Shown in pieces: positions 38,180-44,800 of a stretch of DNA of 53,404 nucleotides. The stretch comes from Duncaniella sp. (lineage in GTDB: Bacteria > Bacteroidota > Bacteroidia > Bacteroidales > Muribaculaceae), in the NCBI GenBank assembly GCA_023664955.1, contig JAMPEV010000001.1:1529824-1583227 (forward strand). Reading direction: 5' to 3'. The notes beneath the pieces were generated by a model. It was not told the DNA's origin. It made no database searches and saw only the letters and a program-made list of their open reading frames with translations. The translations under genes were made by a program, and so were the position numbers. Positions within the stretch are counted from its first letter, which is position 1; the number at the start of each line of letters is the position of its first letter.

Positions 38180-38974
38180 ATGGTTAACTTTTCACTTGAA
38201 GGTAAAGTGGCCCTAGTAACAGGCGCTGCTTACGGAATTGGCCTTGCGATAGCTCAGGCATACGCAGAGGCAGGTGCAAAAATCGTGTTTAACTGCTCAC
38301 GTCAGGAGACAGTGGAACGTGGGATGAAGGCTTACAAAGAACTTGGCATAGACGCAAAGGGGTATCTCTGCGATGTTACTGATGAAGAAGCGGTGAAGGC
38401 AATGGTGGCAGACATCGAGGCTACAGTGGGCACAATCGATATCCTTGTCAACAATGCGGGGATTATCAAACGTATCCCCATGACAGAGATGGCAGTAGAG
38501 GATTTCCGACGTGTGATAGACGTTGACCTCGTGGCTCCCTATATCTGTGCAAAGGCAGTAATTCCCGGAATGATTAAGAAGGGACATGGTAAGATTATCA
38601 ACATCTGCTCAATGATGAGTGAGCTTGGCCGAGAGACAGTATCGGCCTACGCTGCGGCAAAGGGCGGATTGAAGATGCTCACCCGCAACATTTGCTCAGA
38701 ATTCGGTGAATACAATATCCAGTGCAACGGTATCGGTCCGGGCTATATCGCAACAGAGCAGACAGCTCCTCTTCGTGAGATCCAGCCTGACGGTTCACGT
38801 CATCCGTTTGACCAGTTCATTATTTCAAAGACGCCGGCAGCTCGATGGGGTACACCGGAGGATCTTATGGGACCTGCTGTGTTCCTCGCTTCAGATGCAT
38901 CTGACTTTGTAAATGGCCATGTGCTATATGTAGACGGTGGTATACTCGCTTACATCGGAAAGCAGCCCAAATAA
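38180..38974 (+). CDS. kduD: 2-dehydro-3-deoxy-D-gluconate 5-dehydrogenase / gluconate 5-dehydrogenase (SDR)
   Basis: A 264-residue short-chain dehydrogenase. It has the Rossmann motif TGAAYGIG (14-21), NNAG, the catalytic Ser/Tyr/Lys set in ICSMMSELG and SAYAAAKGG (Tyr near 157), and the PGYIATEQT segment found in KduD and gluconate 5-dehydrogenases. KduD reduces 3-deoxy-D-glycero-2,5-hexodiulosonate to KDG with NADH. The kduI and kdgK genes downstream favour KduD over gluconate 5-dehydrogenase. No signal peptide, so it is cytosolic. The EIIC-like gene starts 6 nt after it. Confidence 0.9.
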   Translation: MVNFSLEGKVALVTGAAYGIGLAIAQAYAEAGAKIVFNCSRQETVERGMKAYKELGIDAKGYLCDVTDEEAVKAMVADIEATVGTIDILVNNAGIIKRIPMTEMAVEDFRRVIDVDLVAPYICAKAVIPGMIKKGHGKIINICSMMSELGRETVSAYAAAKGGLKMLTRNICSEFGEYNIQCNGIGPGYIATEQTAPLREIQPDGSRHPFDQFIISKTPAARWGTPEDLMGPAVFLASDASDFVNGHVLYVDGGILAYIGKQPK

Positions 38975-38980
38975 TCAGAC

Positions 38981-40363
38981 ATGGAACAAGTTTTCTCATA
39001 TATCATAGGCTTAGGCGCAGCGGTGATGATGCCAATCATCTTCACTGTGCTTGGTCTTTGTATTGGCATAAAGTTTGGAAAGGCTTTGATGTGCGGTCTG
39101 AAGGTCGGTGTCGGTTTTATCGGTCTGTCAGTTGTTACCGCACTTCTCACGTCGAGCCTTGGTCCGGCGCTTAACGATGTAGTCGGCATTTATGACCTTC
39201 AGTTGCAAGTGTTTGACATGGGATGGCCTGCAGCAGCGGCAGTGGCATATAACACAGCGGTGGGTGCGTTTATCATCCCCGTATGCCTCGGAGTCAACCT
39301 ACTTTTGCTATTCGTAAAAGGCACACGCACAGTCAATATTGACTTGTGGAACTACTGGCATTTTGCATTCATCGGTGCCGTTGTATACTTTGCGTCCAAC
39401 TCAATCCTCTGGGGATTTTTCGCAGCGATAATTTGCTACATTATCACACTGGTTATCGCCGACCTTACTGCACATAAATTTCAGCATTTCTACAAGGATA
39501 TGGAAGGTATTTCGATTCCACAGCCCTTCTGTGCCGGTTTCGTGCCTTTCGCATGGGGAATCAATAAGATTCTTGACAAGACCCCGGGTATGAACCGCCT
39601 GGAGATTGATGCAGAGGGCTTGAAGCGCAAATTCGGTGTGCTTGGTGAGCCTCTTTTCCTTGGTGTAATCGTAGGAATCGTAATCGGTTGTCTCACATGT
39701 ACTTCTTGGAATGAGATAGTTGAGTCGATTCCTCGTATTCTTGGTTTAGGTATCAAGATGGGAGCGGTGATGGAGTTGATTCCTCGTGTGACAGTTCTCT
39801 TCATCGAAGGTTTGAAGCCTATCTCTGACCACACCCGCGAATTGATTGCACGAAAATTCAAAGGGGCAAAGGGTCTGTCAATCGGTATGAGTCCTGCGCT
39901 TGTGATTGGACATCCTACGACGCTTGTGGTATCGTTGCTCCTAATCCCTGTGACACTCGTTCTCGCTGTGGTTTTACCAGGCAACCAGTTCTTGCCATTG
40001 GCCTCACTTGCAGGTATGTTCTACATATTCCCTCTCGTTCTTCCGTTTACTAAGGGTAATGTGATAAAGACATTCATTGTGGGATTGGTGGTAATTATCC
40101 TTGCATTGTTCTCGGTTACTAATCTTGCACCATTCTTCACAGAAGCAGCGCGTGATGTATATGCCAACACCGGTGATGCAGCCGTTGCAATTCCAGAAGG
40201 TTTCTTAGGAGGTAGTCTCGACTTCGCCGGAAGCCCGCTCGCTTGGATTATCTTCCAGTGCTGCCATAACCTCGCCTATGTTGGTGCAGGCATTCTCACT
40301 ATTTGCACAGCGGCATTAGTGGTGTGGAATCGTCGCAAAATATCAAAGGAGGACCGTCCGTAA
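38981..40363 (+). CDS. Orphan PTS EIIC component, galactitol (GatC) family
   Basis: A 460-residue polytopic membrane protein homologous to GatC, the membrane subunit of the galactitol PTS. Matches to the E. coli protein that I can recall include the early VG..GF.GL segment, VNVDIWN-like TVNIDLWNYWHF, LEGI.IP (MEGISIPQPF), the KFG.LGEP segment (RKFGVLGEPLFLG), GLDPALLLGH-like MSPALVIGHPT and VPGNQ-LP (LPGNQFLPLASLA). No EIIA or EIIB gene is nearby, and Bacteroidetes generally lack PTS sugar uptake, so it probably works as a plain permease or proton-coupled carrier. Its place between kduD and kduI suggests a uronate or deoxy-hexulosonate substrate. This last point is inference. Confidence 0.9.
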   Translation: MEQVFSYIIGLGAAVMMPIIFTVLGLCIGIKFGKALMCGLKVGVGFIGLSVVTALLTSSLGPALNDVVGIYDLQLQVFDMGWPAAAAVAYNTAVGAFIIPVCLGVNLLLLFVKGTRTVNIDLWNYWHFAFIGAVVYFASNSILWGFFAAIICYIITLVIADLTAHKFQHFYKDMEGISIPQPFCAGFVPFAWGINKILDKTPGMNRLEIDAEGLKRKFGVLGEPLFLGVIVGIVIGCLTCTSWNEIVESIPRILGLGIKMGAVMELIPRVTVLFIEGLKPISDHTRELIARKFKGAKGLSIGMSPALVIGHPTTLVVSLLLIPVTLVLAVVLPGNQFLPLASLAGMFYIFPLVLPFTKGNVIKTFIVGLVVIILALFSVTNLAPFFTEAARDVYANTGDAAVAIPEGFLGGSLDFAGSPLAWIIFQCCHNLAYVGAGILTICTAALVVWNRRKISKEDRP

Positions 40364-40372
40364 TAGATGTTT

Positions 40373-40408
40373 GAAATTTAGGTCAGTCTAAAATCTGGCC
40401 TAAATTTC
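40373..40408 (+). promoter_or_regulatory. Hairpin between EIIC-like gene and kduI
   Basis: A 14-bp stem with one mismatch (40373-40386 with 40395-40408) and an 8-nt loop, with no T-run after it. It may mark processing or partial termination between the kduD-EIIC pair and kduI. Confidence 0.55.
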
Positions 40409-40485
40409 AGGCTCTTTCATAATATCGGCAGCGTTCAATTATTGAAGCCTGCCTAAAATCAGTTCATGTTTAATTACACAAAACA

Positions 40486-41406
40486 ATGAAAAAATTCTTT
40501 ATCACAGCATCTCTCGTTTTAGCTTCATTAACCGCTATGGCTCAGACTGAATATAAAGTTATGCGTGCATGTCATCCTGATGACGTGAAGCATTATGACA
40601 CCAACCAACTTCGCAGTCATTTTATGATGCCAAAAGTCATGGAACAGAATAAAATCAATCTTACCTACTCTATGTACGACCGTCTAATCTTTGGCGGAGT
40701 GATTCCCGTAGGGAAGGTTGTGGAACTCGAAACCATCGATCCGTTGAAAGCTGAATACTTTCTCGAGCGCCGCGAACTTGGCGTAATAAATATAGGTGGT
40801 GCAGGTATAGTGTCAGTGGATGGGAAGGACTACGAGCTCAATTTCAAAGATGCGCTCTATGTCGGACGTGGAAATAAGAATGTAACTTTCCGCAGCAAGG
40901 ATGATGCAAATCCTGCAAAGTTCTACATTAATTCAACACCGGCCCATAAAGCATATAAGACACAGCTTATCACAATCGATGGTCGTAAAGGAAGCTTGAA
41001 GGCTAATTCGTTCGCTGCCGGTACGATGGAAGAAAGCAATGACCGCGTAATCAATCAGCTCATAGTAAACAATGTACTTGAGGAAGGACCATGCCAGCTT
41101 CAGATGGGCTTGACAGAGCTTAAACCAGGCAGCGTATGGAACACAATGCCCGCCCATACTCACGATCGTCGTGTGGAAGCTTACTTCTATTTCAACGTTC
41201 CGGAGGGAAATGCAATATGTCACCTCATGGGAGAGCCACAGGAGAACCGTCTAATTTGGCTTCATAACGAGCAGGCAGTGATGGCTCCCGAATGGTCAAT
41301 CCATGCTGCAGCCGGTACCTCTAACTATATGTTTATATGGGGCATGGGTGGGGAAAATCTTGACTATGGCGACATGGACAAGATTACCTATCTTGAGATG
41401 AAATAA
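40486..41406 (+). CDS. kduI: 5-dehydro-4-deoxy-D-glucuronate isomerase with a signal peptide
   Basis: A 306-residue KduI that isomerises 5-dehydro-4-deoxy-D-glucuronate (from unsaturated uronates) to 3-deoxy-D-glycero-2,5-hexodiulosonate. The cupin zinc ligands are His224, His226, Glu231 (AHTHDRRVE) and His273 (WSIHAAAG); relative to the E. coli enzyme as I recall it (196, 198, 203, 245) all are shifted by exactly 28, so the core has no insertions in this part. The extra N-terminus, [20 protein letters not shown], is a textbook signal peptide (two Lys, hydrophobic core, AMA cleavage site). That predicts a periplasmic enzyme, which is unusual. The ATG at 40486 has a typical A-rich Bacteroidetes leader. 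An internal ATG at 40561 would give a near-normal cytosolic form. Confidence 0.94.
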
Positions 41407-41441: not shown

Positions 41442-42206
41442 ATGATTCAAATAAAGGATATAATACGACATTCCGAACACACTGCTGAAGTAGTGATTGA
41501 GTCACCCTCAATCGCAGCTTCGGCACGTGCCGGACATTTTGTCATTATCCGTTTTAACGAGGAATGCCCGCGAATACCATTCACAATTGTCGATACTGAC
41601 AAAGACAATGGCACATTCACCATCATAATACATAAAGGAGCACGCCTCACTGAGCTTATTAATTCACTCGAAGTCGGTTATGAAATTCTTGATTTGCTCG
41701 GTCCCTTAGGCCAAGCATTTGAAGTTAAGAACTACGGCAAAGTGCTTTGTTGCGGCGACGGAGCAGGTTTTGTTCCGCTTATCCCCATCATTAAGGCTTT
41801 GAAGAAGACCGGCAACAATGTCACAGCTATATTATCAGAATTCTCTGAAAAAACTTCATGCTTGAAAAGCAATGCGGAGAAGTACGCTGACGAGATTCTT
41901 CTCTCGGAGGATGAATCAGAGACTTTGTGTATAATCGATGATTTCACATCAACGAAGGGAGTGGATCTTGTCATAATGACCGGACCAACACACATGATGA
42001 AGAAAATTTCAGAGATTACGATGGCTAATCACACTTCTACATTGTGTATCCTTAATATGGTAATGCTTGATGGTGTAGGCCTTTGTGGTATTTGTCGTGT
42101 GATGGTGGACGGTGTTCGGAAACTTACCTGTATCGACGGGCCCATCTTCGATGCACATCATGTGGATTTCGATCAATTACAAAACCGACAAAGTTATTTC
42201 CTATGA
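41442..42206 (+). CDS. NfnA/SudB-like FAD/NAD-binding electron-transfer subunit
   Basis: A 254-residue ferredoxin-NADP reductase-like flavoprotein, like PyrK and NfnA. The N-terminal FAD domain has HFVIIRF and PFTIVDTDKDNGTFTIIIHKGA; the NAD domain has the GDGAGFVPLIPIIKALKKTG segment in place of the usual GGGxGxAP. The C-terminal [2Fe-2S] site is MLDGVGLCGICR...KLTCIDGP, with Asp210, Cys215, Cys218 and Cys230, the Asp-plus-three-Cys pattern known from NfnA. I use ATG 41442; the ORF also opens from TTG 41421. Its stop overlaps the next gene (ATGA). In NfnAB this subunit binds NADH or NAD+ and couples to ferredoxin. Confidence 0.88.
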   Translation: MIQIKDIIRHSEHTAEVVIESPSIAASARAGHFVIIRFNEECPRIPFTIVDTDKDNGTFTIIIHKGARLTELINSLEVGYEILDLLGPLGQAFEVKNYGKVLCCGDGAGFVPLIPIIKALKKTGNNVTAILSEFSEKTSCLKSNAEKYADEILLSEDESETLCIIDDFTSTKGVDLVIMTGPTHMMKKISEITMANHTSTLCILNMVMLDGVGLCGICRVMVDGVRKLTCIDGPIFDAHHVDFDQLQNRQSYFL

Positions 42207-43717
42207 ATATTGAGAATCTCATATCAAGAGATAGCAAATGGCGTGATGAATTGAGAAAACTCCACACCACTAAGGAACGCACTTCACTTCCCCGAGTTGT
42301 CATGCCTGAGATACCGGCGTCCTACCGTATAACTTGCAATGACGAAGTGAATCAGGGATTGTCAATTGACCAAGCAGTTCTTGAAGCCCGTCGCTGTCTT
42401 GACTGCCCTGATCCCGGTTGCATGAAAGGATGTCCGGTGGCCAACAATATCCCATCGTTCATCAAGAACATTGAACGACGTAACTTTACAGAAGCCTTGG
42501 AAGTACTCAATCTGACCACTGTCCTGCCGGCAGTGTGTGGTAGAGTGTGTCCTCAGGAGAAGCAGTGTGAGGCAGGTTGTATTTATAATAAGATGAAAAA
42601 GCCTGCCGTAGCAATTGGAAATCTCGAACGATTTGTGGCTGACTTTAATCGGGAAGTTGACCGCAACGTTTCACCGTCTGAGAAAAGGACTGAAAATGTC
42701 AAATCGTTTGCATCTCCATTTTTTGCTGGAATTAAGATAGCCGTTGTCGGATCCGGTCCTTCCGGATTGGCATTTGCAGGTGATATGGCCAAACGCGGGT
42801 ATGATGTGACTATTTTTGAAGCTTTAGACCGTTTTGGCGGAGTGCTGAAATATGGTATTCCTGAATTTTGCCTTCCCAACGATGTGGTAGATGCGGAAAT
42901 TTCAAAGCTTCATACCCTTGGAGTAAAGTTTGTAAAAAATGCATTCGTTGGAAAGACTATTTCCTACAATCAACTCCAAGAACAGGGCTTTAAAGGCATC
43001 TATGTTGCCACGGGAGCGGGCAAGCCGCGGTTCATGGGAATTCCCGGTGAAAACCTTCCCGGAGTGATGACTGCTAATGAGTATCTGATGCGTCTGAATC
43101 TAATGGGAGGAAACGAGATATATGGTCAGAACACCACTTCATTACGCCGAAAACGAGTGGCAGTCATCGGAGCCGGCAATACTGCCATGGATGCTGTAAG
43201 AGCCGCCCGTAGAATGGGAGCTGAACGTGCTATGATAGTCTATCGTAGAAGCGAAGAGGAAATTCCGGCACGAGCCGAAGAAGTGCGTCATGCACGTGAG
43301 GAAGGAGTGGAATTTCTCACATTGCATAATCCGGTGGAATATCTTGAGGATGAAAACGGGATACTTCGTGCGATGCGTCTTCAAAAGATGCAACTTGGAG
43401 AGCCAGACGAATCAGGGCGAAGAGCACCCATTGAGATTCCAGGCGCCATAGAGGATATCGATGTGGATCTCGTGGTAATTTGTGTAGGTTATCTTCCCAA
43501 TCCACCGGCACTGTTGGCCGATGTTGACAAATCACGTCAGGGTAATATTGTGGTTGATGGAGCATCGATGAAGTCCTCGTCGCCAGATATATACGCCGGA
43601 GGTGATATTGTACGCGGGGCAGCTACTGTAATCCTTGCAATGGGTGACGGTAGGAAGGCGGCAAAATCAATGTCGGAAGCATTCGAGAATATTATAAAAA
43701 ACAGTTCATTGACTTAA
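42203..43717 (+). CDS. NfnB/SudA-like (GltD-like) NADPH oxidoreductase
   Basis: A 504-residue flavoprotein of the glutamate-synthase small-subunit type. Two 4Fe-4S cluster motifs lie near the N-terminus (Cys65, 68, 73, 77 and Cys112, 116, 122, 126). Next are the FAD GxGxxG of KIAVVGSGPSGLAFAGD, the GVLKYGIPEF segment and the NADPH fold RVAVIGAGNTAMDAVRAARR. The start is ATG 42203, overlapping the upstream stop; a longer reading from 42083 is an artefact. No GltB large subunit is nearby. The NfnA-like partner with its Asp/Cys cluster indicates an NfnAB-type transhydrogenase (NADH, NADPH and ferredoxin) rather than glutamate synthase. Whether it bifurcates electrons is inferred. Confidence 0.9.
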   Translation: MNIENLISRDSKWRDELRKLHTTKERTSLPRVVMPEIPASYRITCNDEVNQGLSIDQAVLEARRCLDCPDPGCMKGCPVANNIPSFIKNIERRNFTEALEVLNLTTVLPAVCGRVCPQEKQCEAGCIYNKMKKPAVAIGNLERFVADFNREVDRNVSPSEKRTENVKSFASPFFAGIKIAVVGSGPSGLAFAGDMAKRGYDVTIFEALDRFGGVLKYGIPEFCLPNDVVDAEISKLHTLGVKFVKNAFVGKTISYNQLQEQGFKGIYVATGAGKPRFMGIPGENLPGVMTANEYLMRLNLMGGNEIYGQNTTSLRRKRVAVIGAGNTAMDAVRAARRMGAERAMIVYRRSEEEIPARAEEVRHAREEGVEFLTLHNPVEYLEDENGILRAMRLQKMQLGEPDESGRRAPIEIPGAIEDIDVDLVVICVGYLPNPPALLADVDKSRQGNIVVDGASMKSSSPDIYAGGDIVRGAATVILAMGDGRKAAKSMSEAFENIIKNSSLT

Positions 43718-43780: not shown

Positions 43781-44800
43781 ATGAAAGTAGTAACTTTAGG
43801 CGAAATCATGCTTCGCCTTTCACCCGAAGGTAACCACCGTTTCGTACAAGTAGATAACTTTGACGTTATCTGGGGAGGTGGTGAAGCCAACGTTGCAGTT
43901 AGCTGTGCTAACTATGGACTTGACGCTTATTTCGTGTCAAAACTTCCCAAGCATGAAATAGGTCAGGCTGCTGTAAATGCATTGCGTCGTTATGGCGTTC
44001 ACACTGATCATATCGCTCGCGGTGGTGACCGTGTTGGTATCTACTATTGTGAGACAGGTGCTTCAATGCGTCCTTCAAAGGTAATCTACGACCGTGCCAA
44101 CTCCGCAATCGCAGAAGCAAATCCCGAAGACTTCGATTTTGATAAAATTATGGAAGGCGCAGACTGGTTCCACTGGAGCGGAATCACACCCGCTATCTCT
44201 GACAAGGCTGCAGAGCTCACTCGTCTTGCCTGCGAAGCAGCGAAGCGTCACGGTGTTACAGTGTCAGTAGACCTTAACTTCCGTAAGAAGCTTTGGACAA
44301 AAGAAAAAGCTCAGTCAATCATGCGTCCTCTTATGCAGTATGTTGACGTGTGCATAGGTAACGAAGAAGATGCTGAACTATGCCTCGGCTTCAAACCTGA
44401 TGCTGACGTAGAAGGCGGCGAAACCAATGCAGAGGGTTACAAAGGTATTTTCACCGCAATGGCTAAGGAATTCGGCTTTAAGTATGTGATCTCCACTCTT
44501 CGTGAGTCATTCTCAGCTACTCACAATGGATGGAAGGCTATGATTTACAATGGCAAGGAATTCTACGAGTCAAAACGATACGACATCAATCCTATCATCG
44601 ACCGTGTAGGTGGTGGTGACTCTTTCTCAGGCGGTGTAATCTATGGTCTGTTGACAATGGACAATCAGGCCGATGCTCTTGAATTTGCCGTTGCTGCTTC
44701 TGCTCTCAAGCACACTATCCCCGGTGACTTCAATCTTGTAACAGTTGACGAAGTTAAGTCACTCGCAGGAGGTAACGCTAACGGACGCGTACAACGTTAA
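43781..44800 (+). CDS. kdgK: 2-dehydro-3-deoxygluconokinase (PfkB family)
   Basis: A 339-residue ribokinase-family sugar kinase that phosphorylates KDG to KDPG. The N-terminus VVTLGEIMLRLSPEGNHRFVQ and the substrate region WGGGEANVAVSCANYGL are typical of KdgK, as are the ATP/catalytic motif GGGDSFSGGVIYGLL with the base Asp near 281. It follows nfnB by 63 nt and is the last step of the cluster that is present; the KDPG aldolase is not in the window. A perfect 17-bp hairpin after it ends the cluster. Confidence 0.93.
   Translation: MKVVTLGEIMLRLSPEGNHRFVQVDNFDVIWGGGEANVAVSCANYGLDAYFVSKLPKHEIGQAAVNALRRYGVHTDHIARGGDRVGIYYCETGASMRPSKVIYDRANSAIAEANPEDFDFDKIMEGADWFHWSGITPAISDKAAELTRLACEAAKRHGVTVSVDLNFRKKLWTKEKAQSIMRPLMQYVDVCIGNEEDAELCLGFKPDADVEGGETNAEGYKGIFTAMAKEFGFKYVISTLRESFSATHNGWKAMIYNGKEFYESKRYDINPIIDRVGGGDSFSGGVIYGLLTMDNQADALEFAVAASALKHTIPGDFNLVTVDEVKSLAGGNANGRVQR

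Follow-up and report, generated by a model that had tools for sequence, protein, structure and literature searches.

A predicted signal peptide on the uronate isomerase KduI of Muribaculaceae and its close association with an EIIC-GAT permease

In the use of glycosaminoglycans by Bacteroides, monomers are imported first and the unsaturated uronate is then metabolised in the cytoplasm, an order set out in passages of a review (PMC9067506) and of work on B. thetaiotaomicron (PMC6994673). The 53,404-nucleotide stretch of Duncaniella sp. DNA analysed here (the window) holds a gene for the isomerase KduI whose product appears to begin with an export signal, and thus raises the question of the side of the inner membrane on which isomerisation takes place and of the intermediate that is carried across. 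An earlier note on this DNA had predicted a periplasmic enzyme and the import of a later intermediate of the pathway.

The gene occupies positions 40486-41406 of the forward strand, opens with an ATG and comprises 306 codons. Its product scored 399.7 bits with the NCBIfam model for 5-dehydro-4-deoxy-D-glucuronate isomerase (NF002091; cut-off, 250) and 82.5 bits with Pfam PF04962 (cut-off, 23.9), and the family scores and the zinc-site alignment place the cupin isomerase itself in the predicted mature protein, residues 20 to 306 (40543..41406, forward strand). Four residues of the zinc site, H224, H226, E231 and H273 (codons at 41155, 41161, 41176 and 41302 of the forward strand; positions 205, 207, 212 and 254 of the mature protein), were invariant across 45 aligned KduIs. 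We take them to be the counterparts of the zinc ligands H196, H198, E203 and H245 of the Escherichia coli enzyme. They align with the corresponding sites of the E. coli structures 1xru and 1x8m (EC 5.3.1.17), to which the match is nearly full length, and judged by its sequence the reading frame encodes a KduI whose zinc-site residues are intact. The E. coli protein has no leader, whereas that of the window has a predicted 19-residue signal peptide and a net six residues inserted internally. The earlier note had ascribed a 28-position shift of the zinc ligands to an added N-terminus; assuming native E. coli numbering, the total of 28 stands, but the alignment offset is 22 at the start and reaches 28 only through the net internal insertions of six, so that the added N-terminus amounts to about 22 residues.

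Residues 1 to 19 (40486..40542, forward strand) have the n-, h- and c-regions of a signal peptide under a pattern rule of our own, with A-x-A before the mature residue and a predicted signal peptidase I (SPase I) cut before Q20, a +1 residue typical of Bacteroidetes. Signal-peptide calls throughout combine this rule with reading by eye and are not equivalent to SignalP; in a control on other N-termini the rule fired on 23 of 145 KduD proteins, where it responds to the Rossmann motif, on 0 of 56 KdgK proteins and on 0 of 9 others, and because of the KduD result it is no substitute for that program. A PF04962 search of 297 Muribaculaceae genomes gave 91 matches over the cut-off in 89 genomes, and 89 of the 91 had a readable N-terminus once fragments in two genomes (G059 and G254) were excluded. 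Every one of these 89 copies has an upstream ATG and a leader that passes the rule, with the ATG 24 to 26 codons before the Met26 position in 83 of them, and no leaderless copy was found among them. The earlier reading of the first residues as a signal peptide is thus borne out, as one of the Sec/SPase I type, by the rule and by family-wide conservation.

Translation could instead begin at Met26, which is present in the window as an internal ATG (40561..40563, forward strand), with the upstream ATG unused and KduI cytosolic as usual. We regard this as very improbable and reject the internal start, since Met26 is kept in only 16 of the 89 Muribaculaceae copies against 89 of 89 for the upstream ATG and leader, and since the extension varies in the manner of coding DNA. 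Over its 75 nucleotides the differences at codon positions 1, 2 and 3 were 32, 17 and 52 percent, against 33, 33 and 34 percent over the 75 nucleotides that precede it, a count made on 136 non-independent pairs among the 46 of 67 loci with an ATG exactly 25 codons upstream. A solved relative (PDB 9kd0) also argues against Met26: residue 2 of its chain aligns with Q20, as if the protein had been cut at the predicted site.

Glutamine directly follows the cut in 64 of the 89 Muribaculaceae proteins by the strict rule, and a looser pattern, applied to 135 distinct KduIs with a leader, placed it after a small-x-small site in 119; the Bacteroidetes mean for glutamine after an SPase I cut is given as 71 percent in a passage of PMC5837995, and Q20 of the window fits the rule stated there. 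Two other export routes were considered for the window protein and rejected by eye, the lipoprotein route for want of a lipobox cysteine and the Tat route for want of a twin arginine; a comparison of cysteine content, considered as a mark of export, showed no clear difference (3.4 versus 3.2). Export of the leader-type KduI is strongly supported by these sequence features, and from it we infer the location of the enzyme.

The loci nearest to 9kd0 carry leaders (L155 at 88 percent and that of Bacteroides mediterraneensis at 87 percent); a second deposited KduI, 9kcz, comes closest to leaderless proteins (L157 at 91 percent). As 9kd0 begins at the predicted cut and is closest to leader-bearing proteins, its depositors may have known of the leader. 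Literature searches found no paper naming either entry, and no description of a periplasmic KduI was found in the open-licence literature.

The gene immediately before kduI (38981..40363, forward strand) encodes a permease of the EIIC-GAT family, a candidate importer of the KduI product, which scored 262.2 bits with PF03611 (cut-off, 24.2) and matches the galactitol IIC permeases of the phosphotransferase system (PTS) represented by PDB 9u82 with an E value of 4e-76. It differs from them in that its score with the galactitol IIC model TIGR00827 (380.7) lies under the cut-off of 542.2 and in that its genome has no HPr or EIIB match. HPr (PF00381) gave no match in the genome of the window (G000, 83 percent complete) or in any of 12 other Bacteroidota genomes, and matched in both Kiritimatiellae/Verrucomicrobia-type genomes tested; EIIB (PF02302) gave no match in G000 or in any of the 14 others, 12 of them Bacteroidota. 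Given these absences, PTS-driven import was rejected for the Bacteroidota tested, and the EIIC is probably a stand-alone carrier here.

Upstream of the permease lies a KduD/DhuD-type short-chain reductase (38180..38974, forward strand), predicted to be cytosolic as no leader was seen by eye; NCBIfam names it gluconate 5-dehydrogenase and its score falls under the kduD cut-off. A PfkB sugar kinase at 43781..44800 (forward strand), assigned by family profiles, is a KDG kinase (KdgK) by context. Between KduI and KdgK, within the uronate cluster, stand two flavoprotein-related genes on the forward strand, one for an NfnA-like FAD/NAD-binding protein resembling dihydroorotate dehydrogenase B (41442..42206; NF004862, 236.1 bits, cut-off 220) and one for an NfnB-like, GltA-like flavoprotein (42173..43717; TIGR01316, 476.4 bits, cut-off 471.75). 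The pair (41442-43717) resembles the two subunits of NfnAB, an electron-bifurcating transhydrogenase, and related pairs were found in some other Muribaculaceae loci.

The order of genes in the module varies, with EIIC-KduI, EIIC-KdgK-aldolase-KduI and KduD-EIIC-KduI arrangements. In one locus a DUF4861 protein whose leader is lipoprotein-like lies between KduD and EIIC (L095:2101-3258), and several Muribaculaceae loci have a gap of about this size at the same place; no paper on DUF4861 was found. The space between EIIC and KduI in the window contains a long hairpin (40365-40415; -26.6 kcal/mol, z of -7.9). When the same gap was folded in 12 relatives, without z-scoring, a comparable long stem appeared in L104 and the others were weaker or broken, so the hairpin does not appear to be conserved with the module.

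The partnership of leader and permease was followed through 393 sampled Bacteroidales genomes, of which 103 have a PF04962 match. A leader-bearing KduI occurs in 10 of the 393, two of which also hold a leaderless copy, and EIIC-GAT scored over the cut-off in exactly the same 10 genomes; an eleventh EIIC-GAT match (G586) was under the cut-off and came from a genome with no PF04962 match. Only leaderless-type KduI was found in 90 genomes, none with EIIC, a number that includes G528 (L045), in which there is no in-frame ATG and the N-terminus is unreadable. Unclassified among the 103 were G398 (only an IolB-like match), G508 (at a contig edge) and G595 (an open frame of 284 amino acids). Most leaderless KduIs begin 5 to 7 residues ahead of the Met26 position, often with MKTNYE, and at leaderless Bacteroidales loci a KduD-like gene lay in the stretch in 82 of 95 cases and EIIC in 0 of 95. 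In a phylum sample outside Bacteroidales, with a match in 123 of 392 genomes, those loci that were read yielded 31 leaderless KduIs and no leader-bearing one.

Across the 297 Muribaculaceae genomes, KduI and EIIC occur together in 87, KduI alone in 2, EIIC alone in 4 and neither in 204, EIIC matches under the cut-off (G035 and G063) being left out of the count. The exceptions are one leader KduI without EIIC (G121), one genome without EIIC in which the KduI N-terminus is unreadable (G254) and four genomes with EIIC and no KduI match (G163, G206, G220 and G293), and all six are incomplete assemblies. The pairing, in which the isomerase almost always appears to travel with this permease, seems to be a new finding.

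Among the matches listed from named genomes, leader KduIs were present in Bacteroides clarus, B. fluxus, B. heparinolyticus, B. caecigallinarum, B. mediterraneensis, Phocaeicola sartorii, P. intestinalis and Paraprevotella xylaniphila. The best 80 loci listed comprised 47 with leader and EIIC, 26 with neither, 3 with a leader but lacking EIIC within the stretch (L271, which lies at a contig edge, L296 and L300) and 4 with EIIC and no normal KduI leader (L310, L311, L313 and L314). L296, L300 and these last four, together with L315, whose KduI has no normal leader and whose genome has EIIC, are Verrucomicrobia/Kiritimatiellae records or near kin; a genome-wide search at these two leader loci found EIIC for L296 and none for L300, the latter from a Verrucomicrobia genome. 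The KduIs of L310, L311, L313, L314 and L315 are close to the leader group and start with a short hydrophobic segment that carries no positive charge and looks like a decayed signal peptide, in genomes that retained EIIC.

Thirteen Bacteroidota genomes were reached through the named loci, of which 6 have the leader type only and 7 have both types, and in all 7 EIIC stands beside the leader copy and KduD beside the leaderless copy, L298 being the leader copy in P. sartorii. One locus has two copies: on the strand opposite the leader KduI of L297, beside a KduD-like gene, lies a second KduI (L297:11728-12585) that is 68 percent identical to the core of the window protein and has no in-frame upstream ATG. 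In L288 (Bacteroides reticulotermitis JCM 10512) EIIC is split in two and the C-terminus of KduI is unlike that of its relatives, which may reflect decay or sequencing error.

A quick IQ-TREE phylogeny of 153 KduI cores placed the leader KduIs and their Verrucomicrobia/Kiritimatiellae kin in one group of 40 rows with SH-aLRT support of 96, and this tree requires a minimum of 3 changes in the leader and 2 in EIIC. L274, which the rule missed because of an M at position -3, was scored leader-positive by eye in the tree and the tallies, and L003, L017, L020 and L126 were scored EIIC-positive from the genome-wide search, their stretches lacking EIIC (that of L126 is on another contig). A tree-aware pair test of leader against EIIC could draw on only 2 pairs, both on starred branches (p of 1), and was powerless. 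Since the leader KduIs form one clade, the link with EIIC reads as a single event retained rather than a repeated co-gain, and it has outlasted changes of gene order and probable transfer between families. Repeated gain of the leader was considered for the f74 loci, which seemed separate by identity, and was not borne out by the tree, which puts them at the base of the leader group.

These observations lead us to propose, with a probability of roughly 0.7, that a periplasmic KduI isomerises DHU, that a PTS-free EIIC imports DK-II and that a cytosolic KduD reduces it. Exported unsaturated-uronyl hydrolases of families GH88 and GH105 would release the unsaturated uronate in the periplasm, where it would open to DHU (5-keto-4-deoxyuronate); exported KduI would convert DHU to DK-II (3-deoxy-D-glycero-2,5-hexodiulosonate) there; the EIIC-GAT permease would carry DK-II into the cytoplasm without a PTS; and KduD would reduce it to KDG, to be followed by the kinase KdgK and an aldolase. 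The location of KduI, its reaction at that location and DK-II as the cargo of EIIC are the conditional parts of the scheme. Four PF07470 (GH88/105) proteins score over the cut-off in the genome of the window, and all have export signals by eye, three of them SPase I-like and one lipobox-like, which makes it probable that the substrate of KduI arises on the outer side of the inner membrane. In B. clarus the module adjoins pectinesterases and a leader-bearing GH88 protein.

A different cargo would change this picture: KduI would still be periplasmic, and EIIC would import DHU or another uronate rather than DK-II, with KduI merely balancing DHU and DK-II or rescuing leaked substrate. An MFS transporter that could carry a uronate adjoins the B. 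clarus module, and import precedes isomerisation in the passages of PMC9067506 and PMC6994673 cited above. Yet DHU imported into a Muribaculaceae cell would be unlikely to meet a cytosolic KduI homologue, as none of the 89 readable copies is leaderless, and the 90 sampled genomes that have the leaderless type only are without EIIC, which together make this reading unlikely. A change of substrate, with a periplasmic KduI acting mainly on other hexuronates such as galacturonate and glucuronate and EIIC importing ketohexuronates, would accord with a report, as given in part of PMC3578941, that E. coli KduI aids the conversion of both acids; we consider it improbable, for the cluster of a KduD-type reductase and a KDG-type kinase, with a KDPG/KHG aldolase in L095, is that of the DHU route.

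The preferred reading, isomerisation outside and import of DK-II, keeps both predictions of the earlier note. Two outcomes that the note had named as refuting it did not appear in Muribaculaceae, where the orthologues have the extension and show no conserved start at the internal ATG. Periplasmic isomerisation is supported at the level of sequence by the leader on every readable Muribaculaceae copy, and import of a later intermediate by the adjacent EIIC-GAT permease, a candidate importer that scores over the cut-off only in leader-KduI genomes among the 393 sampled Bacteroidales. In its broader form, which we also favour though a little less firmly, the uronate pathway would be split between compartments, isomerising outside and reducing inside, with DK-II rather than DHU imported by a former PTS EIIC-GAT turned uronate carrier; the KduI-EIIC module would be common to Muribaculaceae, Bacteroidaceae and Prevotellaceae, having probably spread by transfer, and would stand beside a cytosolic KduI or replace it. 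A possible reason for early isomerisation lies in the chemistry, the substrate having a reactive aldehyde and the product none.

The module resembles the type E kduI-dhuD clusters of Bacteroidota surveyed by Nishimura and others (PMC12838403) in its isomerase family, its reductase step and its occurrence in gut Bacteroidota, and differs from them in that kduI is there paired directly with the reductase and here with EIIC; a term search of the main text of that survey returned neither "signal" nor "EIIC" nor "permease". According to a portion of PMC3878776, the KdgR regulon of B. thetaiotaomicron includes some periplasmic or extracellular proteins, and a leader KduI may already be among them.

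KduI thus appears to be exported throughout Muribaculaceae and to have an unexpected transporter as its partner. The family-wide export tag and the near-constant EIIC suggest that a step in the breakdown of pectin and glycosaminoglycans, the isomerisation by KduI, has moved outside the inner membrane. The capacity to isomerise first appears to be shared by Muribaculaceae with named species, Bacteroides clarus and B. fluxus among them. The pairing offers a candidate inner-membrane importer for the pathway and a possible substrate for an orphan EIIC, and a periplasmic KduI would change what metabolic models should place in the periplasm.
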